Source: Methanobrevibacter sp. TLL-48-HuF1
GTDB lineage: Archaea > Methanobacteriota > Methanobacteria > Methanobacteriales > Methanobacteriaceae
Length of the DNA: 64,000 nt
Assembly: GCF_023617305.1 (NCBI RefSeq)
Contig: NZ_CP081485.1
Coordinates: forward strand, 1,044,501 to 1,108,500
Direction of reading: 5' to 3'
The first letter of the stretch is position 1. Every line of letters begins with the position of its first letter. The notes beneath the pieces are model-generated. The model was not told the DNA's origin. It saw only the letters and a list, made by a program, of their open reading frames with translations, and searched no databases. A program made the position numbers and the translations under genes. This document shows, one piece after another, positions 15,855 to 42,832 of the stretch.

Positions 15855-16480
15855 AGACATAAATTTCAAGTGAAAGCTCTGCGAAGGTTCTGTAGGAATG
15901 AAGACATGCATTTCATCTGTAAAAACACTTGAAATTTATCTTAATTTTTTGTAGTTAAAATTGAAAATAAAGCCTTTATTATTCTTTTTTTATAAAAATA
16001 ATCATTTTAACCAAGTTAAAAATTTTTTTTCACTTGAAACATATGTCTTGATTTTTGCTTCGCACTAAAAATTGCATTACAGTTGAAATTTATCTCTCAC
16101 TATTCATGTTAAATCATTATATTTTTTTTTGATAAAACTCTTATTGAATTTTTTTTCACTTGAAATATATGTTTTATTTTTCAAATGCTCAGATAAATAT
16201 TATATTATACTGAAAATATTACAATTGAAATACTTCTTCTTTAAATTTGAAATAAAAATTGTTTTAGTCTTATTTTTTTAAATGATAATTTTTTAATAAA
16301 TTTTTAAATTAATTTATTTTATAAAAAATTGATATAAAACATTTATTTTTTAAAAATAAGTAATATATACCTTTTATTTTGTAATTGAAAAATTATAAAA
16401 TTATTTTACAATTATGTTAATTTTGTTTTCATCACTATTTTTTCACTTGAAATATATGTCTTTATAATTGAAATAGTTAA
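15855..16480. other. Chromosomal origin of replication (oriC) with Orc1-box repeats
   Basis: The 940 bases between 15830 and 16771 hold no gene. They carry at least nine copies of a box whose core is CACTTGAAA or a one-base variant. Plus-strand copies start near 15925, 16031, 16078 (ACAGTTGAAAT), 16157, 16221 (ACAATTGAAAT), 16381, 16443 and 16465; one minus-strand copy is at 15863-15875. Several extend to CACTTGAAATATATGT. This matches the mini-ORB boxes bound by Cdc6-1 in Methanothermobacter (recalled consensus TTACACTTGAAA). Very AT-rich blocks (16240-16420, 16500-16680) could be the unwinding element. The orc1/cdc6 gene follows directly, the standard archaeal arrangement. Confidence 0.88.
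15861..15940. repeat. Inverted pair of extended origin boxes
   Basis: AAATTTCAAGTGAAA at 15861-15875 and ACACTTGAAATTTATC at 15925-15940 face each other across about 50 bp of less AT-rich DNA (GCTCTGCGAAGG). It is the only inverted arrangement in the origin; the remaining boxes all point the same way, towards cdc6. Confidence 0.7.
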
Positions 16481-16770
16481 TTTTCATGTTTTAATTTTAA
16501 CTATTTTTATTTACTTTAATTTTTATTTAAGCTATTAATTGACTATTTTTTATAAATTTAAGTATTTTAAACATTTTTTAGTTAATTTTAATTTATTTAA
16601 TTTCTTTAATTTTTATTTTTTAATGAAAATTTATTATCTCAATACAATTTTGTAATACAAACCTTTATTTAACACTGTTTTCATATATTAACACTGGAAA
16701 TAATACTTATAATTTTTTCATATTTTTTAAGATTATTTTACTTTTATTACTTTTTAAGAATGGTGAACAT

Positions 16771-17922
16771 ATGGCAAATATATTTGATGACTTGGAGGTA
16801 GGAAAATCAGTTTTTAAAGATAAACAACCTTTAGATCATAGGTTTTTACCTGAAAATTTACCTCACAGAAAAGAACAGATAACACAAATAGCTAAATATT
16901 GGATTGAAGCATTAAATAATGTTACTCCATCTGATATTACAATTTACGGAAAAACAGGAACTGGAAAAACAGCAGCAGCAAAATTTGCTCGTGAACAACT
17001 AAATGAAGCAGCATCTAATAAGAATGTTTTCATAAAAGTTGAATATATTCGTTGTACTGATTACACAACAGAATATCAGGTTATTGCACAGTTATGTCAA
17101 AAACTTGGAAGAAATGTTCCTCACAGAGGCTGGACAAAAGGGGAAGTTATTAATACTTTCAGAGACATTTTCAGAAGAAATGCATATGGAAAAAAACTAA
17201 TTTTAATTGTTATTTTAGATGAAATTGACATATTGCTTAGTAAAGACGGAGATGGAATTTTATACACTTTAACAAGAACTGACAATGTATCTATATTATC
17301 CATTAGTAATTATGTTGAATTTAAGCAATTTATAACACCTAGAGTAATGAGCAGTTTGAGGGATAAAGAAATTGTTTTCCCACCTTATGGTGCTGATCAG
17401 TTAGCTGATATTTTAAGTGAAAGAGCTCATTTATCATTTAAAGAAGATACAATTGAAAGTGATGTTATACCATTATGTTCAGCTATGGCAGCTAAAGAAG
17501 AAGGAGATGCAAGATATGCACTGGATTTACTTAGAACTGCTGGAGAAATAGCTGATGAAGAAGAATCTGATAAAATCATTGGTGATTATGTAAGAAGGGC
17601 GAAAGACAGAATTGAACATAATAAAATCACTGATATTATTTTAACCTTACCAACTCAGCAACAAAGAGTTTTAGATGCTATTTTAAGACTTACTCAAAAT
17701 AATGAGGAAATAACCTCAGGTAAATTATATGATACTTATAAAGAAGTATCAAAAGGAGATTCTGTAACATACAGAAGAATTTTTGATTTTATAAATGAAC
17801 TTGAAATGTTAGGTATTATTTCAACCAATACTATATCACGTGGACGTGGAAAAGGAAGAACTAATATTATAACACTTCAATGCGATACTAATCTACTTGA
17901 AAAAACACTTTATTCCATATGA
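16771..17922 (+). CDS. cdc6: Origin recognition protein Orc1/Cdc6
   Basis: 383 residues. AAA+ ATPase with Walker A ([13 protein letters not shown], about residue 55-67), Walker B ([10 protein letters not shown]) and sensor-1 (SILSISNY), then the helical lid (sensor 2 region [17 protein letters not shown]), and a C-terminal winged helix (about 285-383, [17 protein letters not shown] to [11 protein letters not shown]). It binds the origin boxes located just upstream and loads MCM. A ribosome site (GGTGAACAT) precedes the ATG. The gene overlaps convergent pyrB by 13 bp. Residues typical of active ATPase are intact, so it is probably the initiator proper. Confidence 0.95.
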
Positions 17923-40061: not shown

Positions 40062-40086
40062 AGTTGAGATTAATTCTCTACTCTAT
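40058..40086 (+). terminator. Hairpin terminator after trpB2
   Basis: ATAGAGT, one mismatch, GAGA, loop TTAA, TCTC, mismatch, ACTCTAT pair into a stem spanning the stop codon. It lies between convergent genes. The T tract after it is weak. Confidence 0.5.
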
Positions 40087-40367
40087 TAATTTGAAAGTAT
40101 TCCGTAAAATACTATTTGGAATATTATACAGTACAAACTTTCTAAAAGCAACCAGTATTCCTCATATTTTTGATATTTTTTGTTAAATGGTTTAATTTTA
40201 GAATATATTGTGAATATTATCATTGATAGGAATGGAATCATCAGTATAAACTTGGTATATGTATTGTTTATATCTATGTTAAATAATCTCATTATGATCA
40301 TGTAGCTATATTGTATTATTAGCATAGTATATAATATTTTGAGATATTTTAGTTCTATATTTTTCAT
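40086..40367 (-). CDS. Small hypothetical membrane protein
   Basis: 93 residues, with three hydrophobic helices (about 10-27, 40-55 and 72-90) separated by short basic loops (YSKIKPFNKKYQKYEEY). It has no recognisable motif. It is separated by 12 bases from the following hypothetical gene on the same strand, and the two may be cotranscribed. Function unknown. Confidence 0.45.
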   Translation of the reverse strand: MKNIELKYLKILYTMLIIQYSYMIIMRLFNIDINNTYTKFILMIPFLSMIIFTIYSKIKPFNKKYQKYEEYWLLLESLYCIIFQIVFYGILSN

Positions 40368-40379
40368 ATTTATTCACCA

Positions 40380-40721
40380 TTATCTAAGAGCATTATATCC
40401 TAAATAATCCCATGCATCTATTTTGTCATGTTTAAAATAGGAATATGTTTCATTTCTATCCATTTTTCTTGCTCCATTTTTGCCGTTAATATAAATAGCA
40501 TTATCTCTATCTAATCTACCATCACTTAAAACTGGAACTTCAATAAATGCTTCATATCCATTATTATCTTTAAAACAAAAGGTTTTTGTTCTATCTTGAA
40601 TCAGAGATGGATGATAACTGAAGTATTGCCAAGTATCCATAGGTTTTAAATCATTTCTCACTTGAACAGTAAATTCACCATATCCTATCATTAAACTAAC
40701 TGCTGATTCTATTGCCTCCAA
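40380..40721 (-). CDS. Hypothetical soluble protein, 113 residues
   Basis: Mostly beta-strand with aromatic residues (TWQYFSYHPSLIQDRTKTFCFKDNNGYEAFIEVPVLSDGR) and a charged C-terminal helix. No signal peptide, no motif I recognise. The start is uncertain, as no Shine-Dalgarno is evident. It pairs with the small membrane protein downstream. Confidence 0.4.
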   Translation of the reverse strand: MEAIESAVSLMIGYGEFTVQVRNDLKPMDTWQYFSYHPSLIQDRTKTFCFKDNNGYEAFIEVPVLSDGRLDRDNAIYINGKNGARKMDRNETYSYFKHDKIDAWDYLGYNALR

Positions 40722-40817
40722 AATAGATGTACAACTTCTGTAGACATAATGCTGAATGTATCTTTGTTTTTTAGTATTGTAAAATTATTATTGATTATGG
40801 AGTTGTATAATGATTCT

Positions 40818-40949
40818 AAAGAACAGTTACTTGAATTTCCCGTAACTTAATGCTATATTTTCTAATTTGGATAATGCTAATGAATTAAGACAAAATTAAT
40901 TTCATGTAATATTTGTTTTGTTGATTTATAAATTTTTTCAATTACATTT
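40818..40949 (+). pseudogene. Possible decayed coding remnant
   Basis: Reading in changing frames gives MELYNDSKEQLLEFPVT, stop, then LNAIFSNLDNANELRQN, stop, then FHVIFVLLIYKFFQLHFIYN. The amino-acid composition looks like coding sequence rather than random AT-rich DNA, but I cannot name the family. Confidence 0.25.
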
Positions 40950-41320
40950 TATTTATAATTTATAACTTATAACTAAAAACTTATAACTAATAACTACTAA
41001 CTATTAACTTATTTCTTATTCTTTATAAGTTATCACTTAAAATATCTAACTTATAACTTATTCCTTAAAACGTAGAATTTATAAGATAGAAGTTATAAAA
41101 TATAACTTATACATTAAACCTTTTAACTTAAAACTTATCTCTTTTAAGTTATGAGGTATAAGTTATTAATTAAAAGTTATCTCTTTTAACTTATTTCTTA
41201 AAAGTTATATCCTATAAGTTATTTCTTAAAAGTTAAAACTTATTTCTAATAACTTAGAAGTTATCTCTTGTAAGATATAACTTAAAACTTATTTCTAATA
41301 ACTTAAAACTTATCATTTAT
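40950..41320. repeat. Strictly 7-bp-phased tandem array upstream of parA
   Basis: From 40950 to 41320 the DNA can be cut into 53 heptamers with no insertion or deletion. Exact AACTTAT occurs at 40964, 40978, 41006, 41048, 41055, 41104, 41132, 41188, 41237, 41286 and 41307. AAGTTAT occurs at 41027, 41090, 41146, 41160, 41174, 41202, 41216 and 41258. Every interval between these is a multiple of 7. Other heptamers are relatives (AACTTAA, TTCTTAA, TTCTAAT, CTCTTTT). A 24-bp stretch at 41233-41256 recurs exactly at 41282-41305. The ribosome site AAGGAGA (41321-41327) follows. Likely a protein-binding site; the first choice is the centromere of the ParA system. Confidence 0.9.
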
Positions 41321-41335
41321 AAGGAGAATTAACTA

Positions 41336-42112
41336 ATGAGTGAAATAATAGCTGTAATGAATCAAAAAGGAGGCTGTGGAAAGACTACAACTGTAGTTAA
41401 TACAGCAACTTCACTAGCTGTAATGGGTAAAACTGTTTTGGTAATTGATATGGATCCTCAAGGTAATGCAACTACCAGCTTTGGGATTGATAAAACAAAA
41501 TTAGAAAATACAATTTATGATGCAATTATTGGGGATGTAAGTGTTAAAAAAGTAACAATCCCTACATTTATCAAGAATTTATTTATTATCCCAAGTAATA
41601 TTTCATTAAGTGGAGCAGGTGTTGAATTAAGCAAAAAGGAAAATTATCATATTGTTTTAAAGGAAACTCTTAAGGAATTGCCTCCTTTGTTTGACTATAT
41701 TTTTATTGATTTGCCTCCTTCTTTAGGTGTTATAACAGTTAATGCATTAGTTGCAGCAGACAGTGTACTTATACCTATTCAGGCAGAATATTATGCATTG
41801 GAAGGAGTAGCTGATTTAATTAATACTATTAACTTAGTTAAAAAAAGACTTAGAACACCTGTTCCGATTAAAGGTATTCTTCTGACATTATATGATAAAA
41901 GAACAAGACTTAGTAAAGATGTCTACAAAGAACTTAAGAATCATTTTGGAAGTACAAATCTATTATTTAACACAGTGATTCCAAGAAATATCAGATTAGC
42001 TGAAGCTCCAAGTTATGGTAAACCTTGTTTAATTTATGATTCTGAAAGTACAGGTACAAAAGCTTATTTAAGTTTAGCTAAAGAAATTATAGAACGGGAT
42101 GGAGGTAATTAG
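41336..42112 (+). CDS. parA: ParA/Soj-type partition ATPase
   Basis: 258 residues. Deviant Walker A with the signature Lys: NQKGGCGKTTTVVN (residues 9-22); Walker A' VLVIDMDPQGNATTSFG; Walker B YIFIDLPPSLGVIT; later SVLIPIQAEYYALEGV and PRNIRLAEAPSYGKP, all as in bacterial Soj/ParA. There is no N-terminal helix-turn-helix, so this is the short, chromosomal or type Ib kind, which binds DNA non-specifically as an ATP dimer and is released by a ParB-like partner. A heptamer array lies directly upstream and a ParB-like gene begins at the next base. Ribosome site AAGGAGA precedes the ATG. Confidence 0.93.
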   Translation: MSEIIAVMNQKGGCGKTTTVVNTATSLAVMGKTVLVIDMDPQGNATTSFGIDKTKLENTIYDAIIGDVSVKKVTIPTFIKNLFIIPSNISLSGAGVELSKKENYHIVLKETLKELPPLFDYIFIDLPPSLGVITVNALVAADSVLIPIQAEYYALEGVADLINTINLVKKRLRTPVPIKGILLTLYDKRTRLSKDVYKELKNHFGSTNLLFNTVIPRNIRLAEAPSYGKPCLIYDSESTGTKAYLSLAKEIIERDGGN

Positions 42113-42832
42113 ATGGCTAAAAAATCAACAGGTTTAGGGAAAGGATTAGATTCTTTAATTCCTGATTTTTATGATGAAGACTTTGACAGTAATTCTGCAG
42201 TATCTCTGGAAGACATGTTAAGTGAAGATGAAAAACAAGAAGAATCTAGTGAAGATATTGTAGAAAATATTGATGAAGATGATTCTTCTAGTGAAGAATC
42301 TGCAGAAGAAAGTCCTGAAAATGATGAATCTAATGAAGAAATTGTAGAAGAAGCTGCTGAAAATGAGGAGTCTAGTGAGGAAATTGTAGAAGATACGAAA
42401 TCTCTTGATGATGATACTTCTGAAGAAGATGAAACTGGTGAAGATATTGTAGATAATCAAGAAGATATTGTAGAGGAAGATGAAAATCAACAAATAGATA
42501 ATGAGGAAGAGGATAGCGATGAGGATGTCAACCAAGAGGAAGTTGAAGATATTGAAACATCATCCGAAGACTTATCTGGCAGTGAAAGTGATGAAGAAAG
42601 CATACAAAATCAAAAAGAACAGGAAAAAATCTTAGAGAATGTAGCTGAAGTTAAAGAGATAGTTGATAAAAATCCAAGAATTACTTTATGGTCTTCACAA
42701 TCTGCAGCAGTATTTAGATATTTAAGAAAAACAGAACCTGAATTTAGTATTAGTAAAGAGGCTTCAGTTTTAATTGATGAAGCAGTTTCTAAAAAATATC
42801 CTGAGATTTGGGAATTATTCGAAGATATCTAA
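42113..42832 (+). CDS. Acidic protein with ParB N-terminal ParA-binding motif
   Basis: 239 residues. It begins AKKSTGLGKGLDSLIPD, which is the conserved N-terminal peptide by which bacterial ParB contacts ParA (GLGRGLDALIP). Residues about 20-170 are a Glu/Asp/Ser-rich, presumably disordered region with several E-D/E-I-V-E repeats. The last 65 residues form a separate basic-to-neutral domain (PRITLWSSQSAAVFRYLRKT to YPEIWELFEDI), possibly ribbon-helix-helix or histone-like, which could bind the array. No ParB CTPase or Spo0J helix-turn-helix domain is present. It abuts parA with no gap and overlaps a convergent radical SAM gene by 18 bp. Confidence 0.75.
   Translation: MAKKSTGLGKGLDSLIPDFYDEDFDSNSAVSLEDMLSEDEKQEESSEDIVENIDEDDSSSEESAEESPENDESNEEIVEEAAENEESSEEIVEDTKSLDDDTSEEDETGEDIVDNQEDIVEEDENQQIDNEEEDSDEDVNQEEVEDIETSSEDLSGSESDEESIQNQKEQEKILENVAEVKEIVDKNPRITLWSSQSAAVFRYLRKTEPEFSISKEASVLIDEAVSKKYPEIWELFEDI

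Follow-up and report, generated by a model that had tools for sequence, protein, structure and literature searches.

The 64,000-nucleotide stretch of Methanobrevibacter DNA that we analyzed, called the window here, contains a gene for a ParA-type ATPase that is directly preceded by a tandem array of 7-bp units (heptads) and directly followed by a second gene (Table 1). The ATPase matches the AAA_31 family with an E value of 1.6e-62. The product of the second gene (42113-42832) matched no Pfam or NCBIfam family, including any ParB family. Over its C-terminal 70 residues it resembles Saccharolobus SegB (phmmer E values of 1.8e-6 and 2.9e-6), and a profile of 13 sequences matched PDB entry 7dv2, a SegB-DNA complex, with an E value of 1.9e-10, and also 7duv. 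SegB proteins were the only relatives returned by this PDB sequence search, and relatives of omega were absent from it. Because the gene behind parA encodes SegB, parA is segA.

Table 1. Features of the segAB locus and of the probable origin in the window
Feature	Position	Strand	Basis or remark
orc1/cdc6	16810..17877	+	TIGR02928, E 1.9e-118; marker of probable replication origin, ~24 kb from array
Heptad array, 53 units	40950..41320	.	Candidate SegB-binding centromere and probable segAB operator; consensus AASTTAT
Ribosome-binding site and leader AAGGAGAATTAACTA	41321..41335	+	Directly after last heptad; from the sequence
segA, ParA-type ATPase, 258 aa	41336..42112	+	AAA_31 / CbiA; Walker motif KGGCGKTT
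segB, SegB-type centromere-binding protein (by homology), 239 aa	42113..42832	+	Start directly after segA stop codon
N-terminal motif GLGKGLDSLIP of SegB	42131..42163	+	Matches bacterial ParB N terminus
Acidic linker of SegB, 42-bp (14-aa) tandem repeats	42242..42393	+	Repeat analysis
Predicted ribbon-helix-helix DNA-binding domain of SegB (KNPRITLWSSQSAAVFRYLRKTEPEFSISKEAS...KYPEIW)	42668..42811	+	Homology to SegB

The sequence NPRI(T/S)LWS..(S/A)AAV...KT.PEFSIS is kept in all relatives, and a ribbon-helix-helix fold is predicted for the C-terminal domain because of its homology to solved SegB. An AlphaFold2 model of this domain was of moderate confidence (pLDDT 73), and the best PDB matches in a fold search with the model were the SegB structures 7duv and 7dv2, at E values (0.37 and 1.9) that are not significant. 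The preliminary description of this locus had compared its logic to that of plasmid pSM19035, with a ribbon-helix-helix partner for ParA; that comparison is supported, and the partner proves homologous to archaeal SegB, for which a DNA-bound structure has been solved. The GLGKGLDSLIP motif of SegB resembles GLGKGLGALIP in the ParB of locus L070. Motifs of the GLGKGL type at the N terminus contact ParA in bacterial systems, and by analogy this segment of SegB is probably the SegA contact. The 14-residue repeats of the acidic linker (42242-42393) vary among relatives; unrelated 14-residue repeats have reportedly been seen in Metallosphaera SegB.

The array at 40950-41320 is real and keeps one phase without a shift. 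Identity within it is 0.57-0.66 at lags of 7, 14, 21, 28, 35, and 42 compared to ≈0.31 at other lags, and the lag-7 contrast is by far the largest in the 64-kb window, where nowhere else comes near. Tandem Repeats Finder reported the repeat at 40953-41322 with 0% indels, and all 19 AASTTAT copies in 40950-41320 fall at residue 0 modulo 7. The statistic for AASTTAT in a single frame gave z = 30, and none of 1000 dinucleotide shuffles reached the observed value. The preliminary description, which had counted 53 heptamers from 40950 without an indel and 19 exact copies at multiples of 7, was therefore accurate on these points. Counted column by column, the units read A A S T T A T, with 32 C and 12 G among the 53 center positions. 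This consensus can equally be written TAASTTA, a pseudo-palindrome with S at its center. Since AACTT and AAGTT are reverse complements of each other, the heptad is two-fold apart from its asymmetric center and can lie in either direction, and the two orientations are mixed in related arrays (C, 568; G, 416).

Pattern searches with reversed controls were run over the whole 1.95-Mb genome. A triple AASTTAT pattern occurred at the array locus only, a looser four-heptad pattern (three or fewer mismatches) clustered at the array alone, and no second array was found. For the preliminary description, an equal phase in many unrelated intergenic regions would have marked the array as simple slippage DNA; in these searches the genome shows the phase at this one locus. 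An Rfam search detected no RNA in 40700-41400.

We compared 80 related parA loci. Nearly all Methanobrevibacter, Methanovirga, and Methanoflexus loci that include enough upstream DNA carry a 7-bp array directly before segA, as the preliminary description had anticipated for related genomes; the bacterial parA loci in the comparison all lack one. The phased AASTTAT arrays of the Methanobrevibacter group contain 25-85 units (median, 53; longest, 84-85), and 20 of 58 array loci lack any phase shift. SegB was found in 123 of 139 genomes of the family, nearly always as a single copy, and the phased pattern in 94 of the 139, where the reversed control was almost empty; among the matches listed, most lie ≈1.5 kb from segB. 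One 78-unit array (L121, in genome G041, putatively M. smithii) contains internal repeats of 98 bp, or 14 heptads, and array length could therefore differ between strains. Second, short heptad clusters occur up to ≈15 kb from segAB in some Methanobrevibacter relatives (L108:15148-15646, L122:1163-1270, and L109:2240-2328).

Every second heptad of the array is strong. Identity is greater at even than at odd multiples of 7, and in 57 related arrays strong AASTT heptads were spaced two units apart in 455 cases, three in 258, and one in 190, which makes 14 bp the general second order. The 21-bp triads (AAxTTAx-AASTTAT-YTCTxxT) of the preliminary description are present where it had placed them, but the even-multiple identity and the pair counts (455 versus 258) led us to reject 21 bp as the general rule. 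Its view that the letters of the units had diverged was half right, in that the columns of the array change at about half the rate of the DNA around it. In 41 close pairs, the difference was 0.083-0.13 in array columns compared to 0.23 outside, with the lowest values at A1, T4, and T5 and the highest at the center. In 19 disjoint pairs, C/G exchange made up 35% of the changes involving C or G at the center compared to 6% outside, a signal that in-phase misalignment could inflate; among strictly isolated substitutions the counts were 3 of 5 and 0 of 12. This exchange is consistent with selection for sites that are functional in either orientation. A tendency of indels to be multiples of 7 was unsupported, as alignment gaps were mixed.

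Three findings go beyond the preliminary description: the identity of SegB, the conservation of the heptad past the genus, and dispersed copies in other genomes. The same heptad forms shorter arrays, of 2-10 units, in front of segA in Methanosphaera, Methanobacterium, and Methanothermobacter types and in Thermococci, and in all groups these short arrays sit 40-120 bp before segA. Of 33 loci from other genera, families, and Thermococci, 30 have two contiguous heptads no more than 250 bp from segA, compared to an expectation of ≈0.07. Examples are CTTATAAGTTATAACTTATAAGATATAATTTATAAGTTC in a genome of ≈49% G+C and TCTAACTTATAAGTTATAACTTATATCTTATAACTG in Thermococci.

Diverged SegB proteins are accompanied by other arrays. 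A diverged second SegAB in genome G135 (L097) has a 15-unit array directly before its segA with an 8-bp step and the consensus TAASTNNN (z = 15 at period 8, and no signal at period 7). A 7-bp array with other letters accompanies a SegB-like gene in G163, and 7-bp-phased repeats, again with other letters, lie upstream of a SegB-like gene on the Methanohalobium plasmid pMETEV01 (NC_014254), which was the one distant match when plasmids were searched with SegB. The protein of this plasmid (L151:2219-2693) shows 36% identity and is encoded behind an AAA ATPase that is not ParA. Searches of viral contigs with SegB and of phages with the octad segB gave no match. Judged from these loci, the phase goes with the protein family and not with one DNA sequence.

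In three complete genomes the sites are also dispersed, and they cluster near segAB. All matches to TATAASTTATAASTTATA (two or fewer mismatches) in G149, putatively M. thermautotrophicus, fall in five places within 75 kb, one of which is the segA upstream region (clustering p, 1.7e-5). Heptad matches fall in four places within 69 kb in G151 (p, 2.6e-4) and in six places within 63 kb in G139, putatively Methanothermus fervidus (p, 2e-6). These sites carry 3-4 heptads each and lie outside genes or at gene ends. Their offsets from segB are alike in G149 and G151 (-24, 0, +18, and +44 kb), where orc1 lies 9 and 17 kb, respectively, outside the site cluster. In G139, orc1 is ≈100 kb and segB ≈31 kb away, and the six sites all lie elsewhere than directly before segA, where no array was found. 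Several of the six (L130-L134) belong to a longer intergenic repeat, an arrangement that duplication could have produced.

The distance of segB from orc1 is 9-84 kb in 13 of 15 complete genomes, which are not independent of each other (25 kb here), and 202 and 309 kb in the remaining two. Very AT-rich repeats just before orc1 in the window (16275-16624) are likely the replication origin; GC skew within the window gave no clear origin position. The window also contains a 255-bp repeat in two copies that are 77% alike (1158-1668).

We consider it likely that the array serves a chromosomal SegAB system as its cis-acting site, with SegB dimers tiling the heptads and SegA moving the resulting filament, and that it functions as a centromere and probably also as an operator. 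The preliminary description had guessed at a centromere-like site for an archaeal ParA system, perhaps doubling as the parA operator, and this guess fits all of the comparative evidence. We infer from the sequence comparisons that SegB binds these heptads. Each ribbon-helix-helix dimer would read one S-centered heptad (A-A-S-T-T, in either orientation), and adjacent dimers, stacked every 7 bp, would form a helical filament along the array DNA, similar to what has been reported for Sulfolobus SegB and for omega of pSM19035. This filament would be the cargo moved by SegA. The GLGKGLDSLIP motif of SegB would trigger ATP hydrolysis by nucleoid-bound SegA, so that the origin-proximal array would be pulled apart after replication. 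SegB at the array would probably also repress segAB, since the array abuts the segA start. Centromere use is suggested by the dispersed origin-side clusters in relatives and operator use by the position of the array, and both roles may hold.

An operator alone is improbable in our judgment. SegB would then repress segAB from a long autoregulatory site, the heptad count would determine how much repressor is titrated, and segregation would proceed via other sites or none. This idea accounts for the end of the array at the segA ribosome-binding site, for the short versions at a similar place in all groups, and for the location of the sole array of this genome at the segAB promoter. However, it leaves unexplained the clustered sites that genomes of the Methanothermobacter and Methanothermus types carry tens of kb away from segA and the one genome with six sites elsewhere and no array before segA, and 50-85 units far exceed what an operator needs. 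We regard it as very improbable that SegB is a bystander and that another protein, such as a nucleoid factor, an origin factor, or an unlinked regulator, binds the sites instead. Two small upstream genes on the minus strand (40086-40367 and 40380-40721) could be cited in its favor, but arrays track segAB in every lineage, diverged SegBs are preceded by phased arrays that differ in their letters or step by 8 bp, and the Sulfolobus SegB motif has the same S-centered, 7-bp layout. Simple slippage DNA, a neutral AT-rich minisatellite before parA by chance, is hardly credible: array length does vary among relatives and the 98-bp repeats in G041 mean that duplication does occur, but the same heptad and phase recur at the same gene across families and Thermococci, including genomes of ≈50% G+C, substitution is slower inside the array than outside, and the phase is absent from other regions of the genome.

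If the array is the SegAB centromere, one long array would have largely replaced dispersed short sites in the Methanobrevibacter group. A broader proposal, which we regard as evenly poised, is that the centromere of this group is a single regional element, with 25-85 contiguous heptads nucleating one continuous SegB filament, and that it arose from dispersed parS-like clusters of 3-4 heptads, which persist close to segAB and, for Methanothermobacter types, next to the origin. The 7-bp-stepped SegB code, with its RASTY core, would go back to the ancestor of archaeal SegAB, and arrays such as the 8-bp one at the SegAB paralogue would be spacing variants.

SegAB is already known, and the euryarchaeal heptad centromere appears to be undescribed. 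No description of heptad SegB sites was found in the literature searched; an earlier one may exist in subscription literature. The appearance of archaeal centromeres, whether they are clustered or dispersed, and the variation of SegAB in Euryarchaea have been listed as open questions (PMC5120986). A 2025 study of SegB reported no site near segAB in Thermococcus sibiricus (PMC12284271); in the Thermococci genome G252, putatively of this species, AASTTAT heptads lie directly before segA. The heptad offers precise sites for tests in cultivable species, some of which can also be manipulated, and links archaeal SegB with the heptad filament architecture of the omega type. Methanobrevibacter is the main methanogen of the human gut and rumen.

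Bacterial ParABS shares with this locus a ParA-type ATPase, an N-terminal GLGKGL..LIP motif in the partner protein, and clustered sites near the origin. ParB, however, is a helix-turn-helix CTPase clamp on 16-bp parS, and SegB lacks such domains. The delta-omega system of pSM19035 is closer in its sites, which are contiguous 7-bp units in either orientation before the partition genes, and in its ribbon-helix-helix binder (here predicted) with a ParA partner. Stimulation of the ParA ATPase there requires four or more contiguous heptads, whatever their orientation (PMC9499535), and Saccharolobus SegB is reported to wrap DNA in a left-handed helix comparable to that of omega (PMC9178275). In contrast to the present array, the pSM19035 sites are plasmid-borne, contain 7-10 units each, and read WATCACW instead of AASTTAT; SegB here carries no sequence evidence of homology to omega.

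The closest known system is SegAB of the Sulfolobales. Saccharolobus SegB is a ribbon-helix-helix protein that recognizes TCTAGASTCTAGA, its deletion leads to anucleate cells, and the motif has been reported as degenerate in Euryarchaeota (PMC12284271). The motif was characterized in Sulfolobales and provides no membership criterion for Euryarchaeota. By our own comparison, it is itself an S-centered 7-bp repeat (TCTAGAS-TCTAGA), but the core here is TAASTTA, and only R-A-S-T-Y and the 7-bp repeat are common to both. The 13-bp sites of Sulfolobales are spread genome-wide (39 peaks and 46 sites), mostly inside genes, whereas this genome has one contiguous array of ≈53 heptads with the core AASTT and relatives have a few clusters of 3-4 heptads near the origin; SegB here also differs in its long acidic linker. 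In both, a ParA-type SegA and a ribbon-helix-helix SegB (the fold being predicted here) are encoded in one operon, and S-centered pseudo-palindromic sites (putative here; S1-S3 in Sulfolobales) lie directly before segA. The Methanobrevibacter locus has these features of SegAB: a SegA with a Walker ATPase, a SegB homologue directly downstream, and S-centered pseudo-palindromic heptads, the putative SegB sites, upstream.
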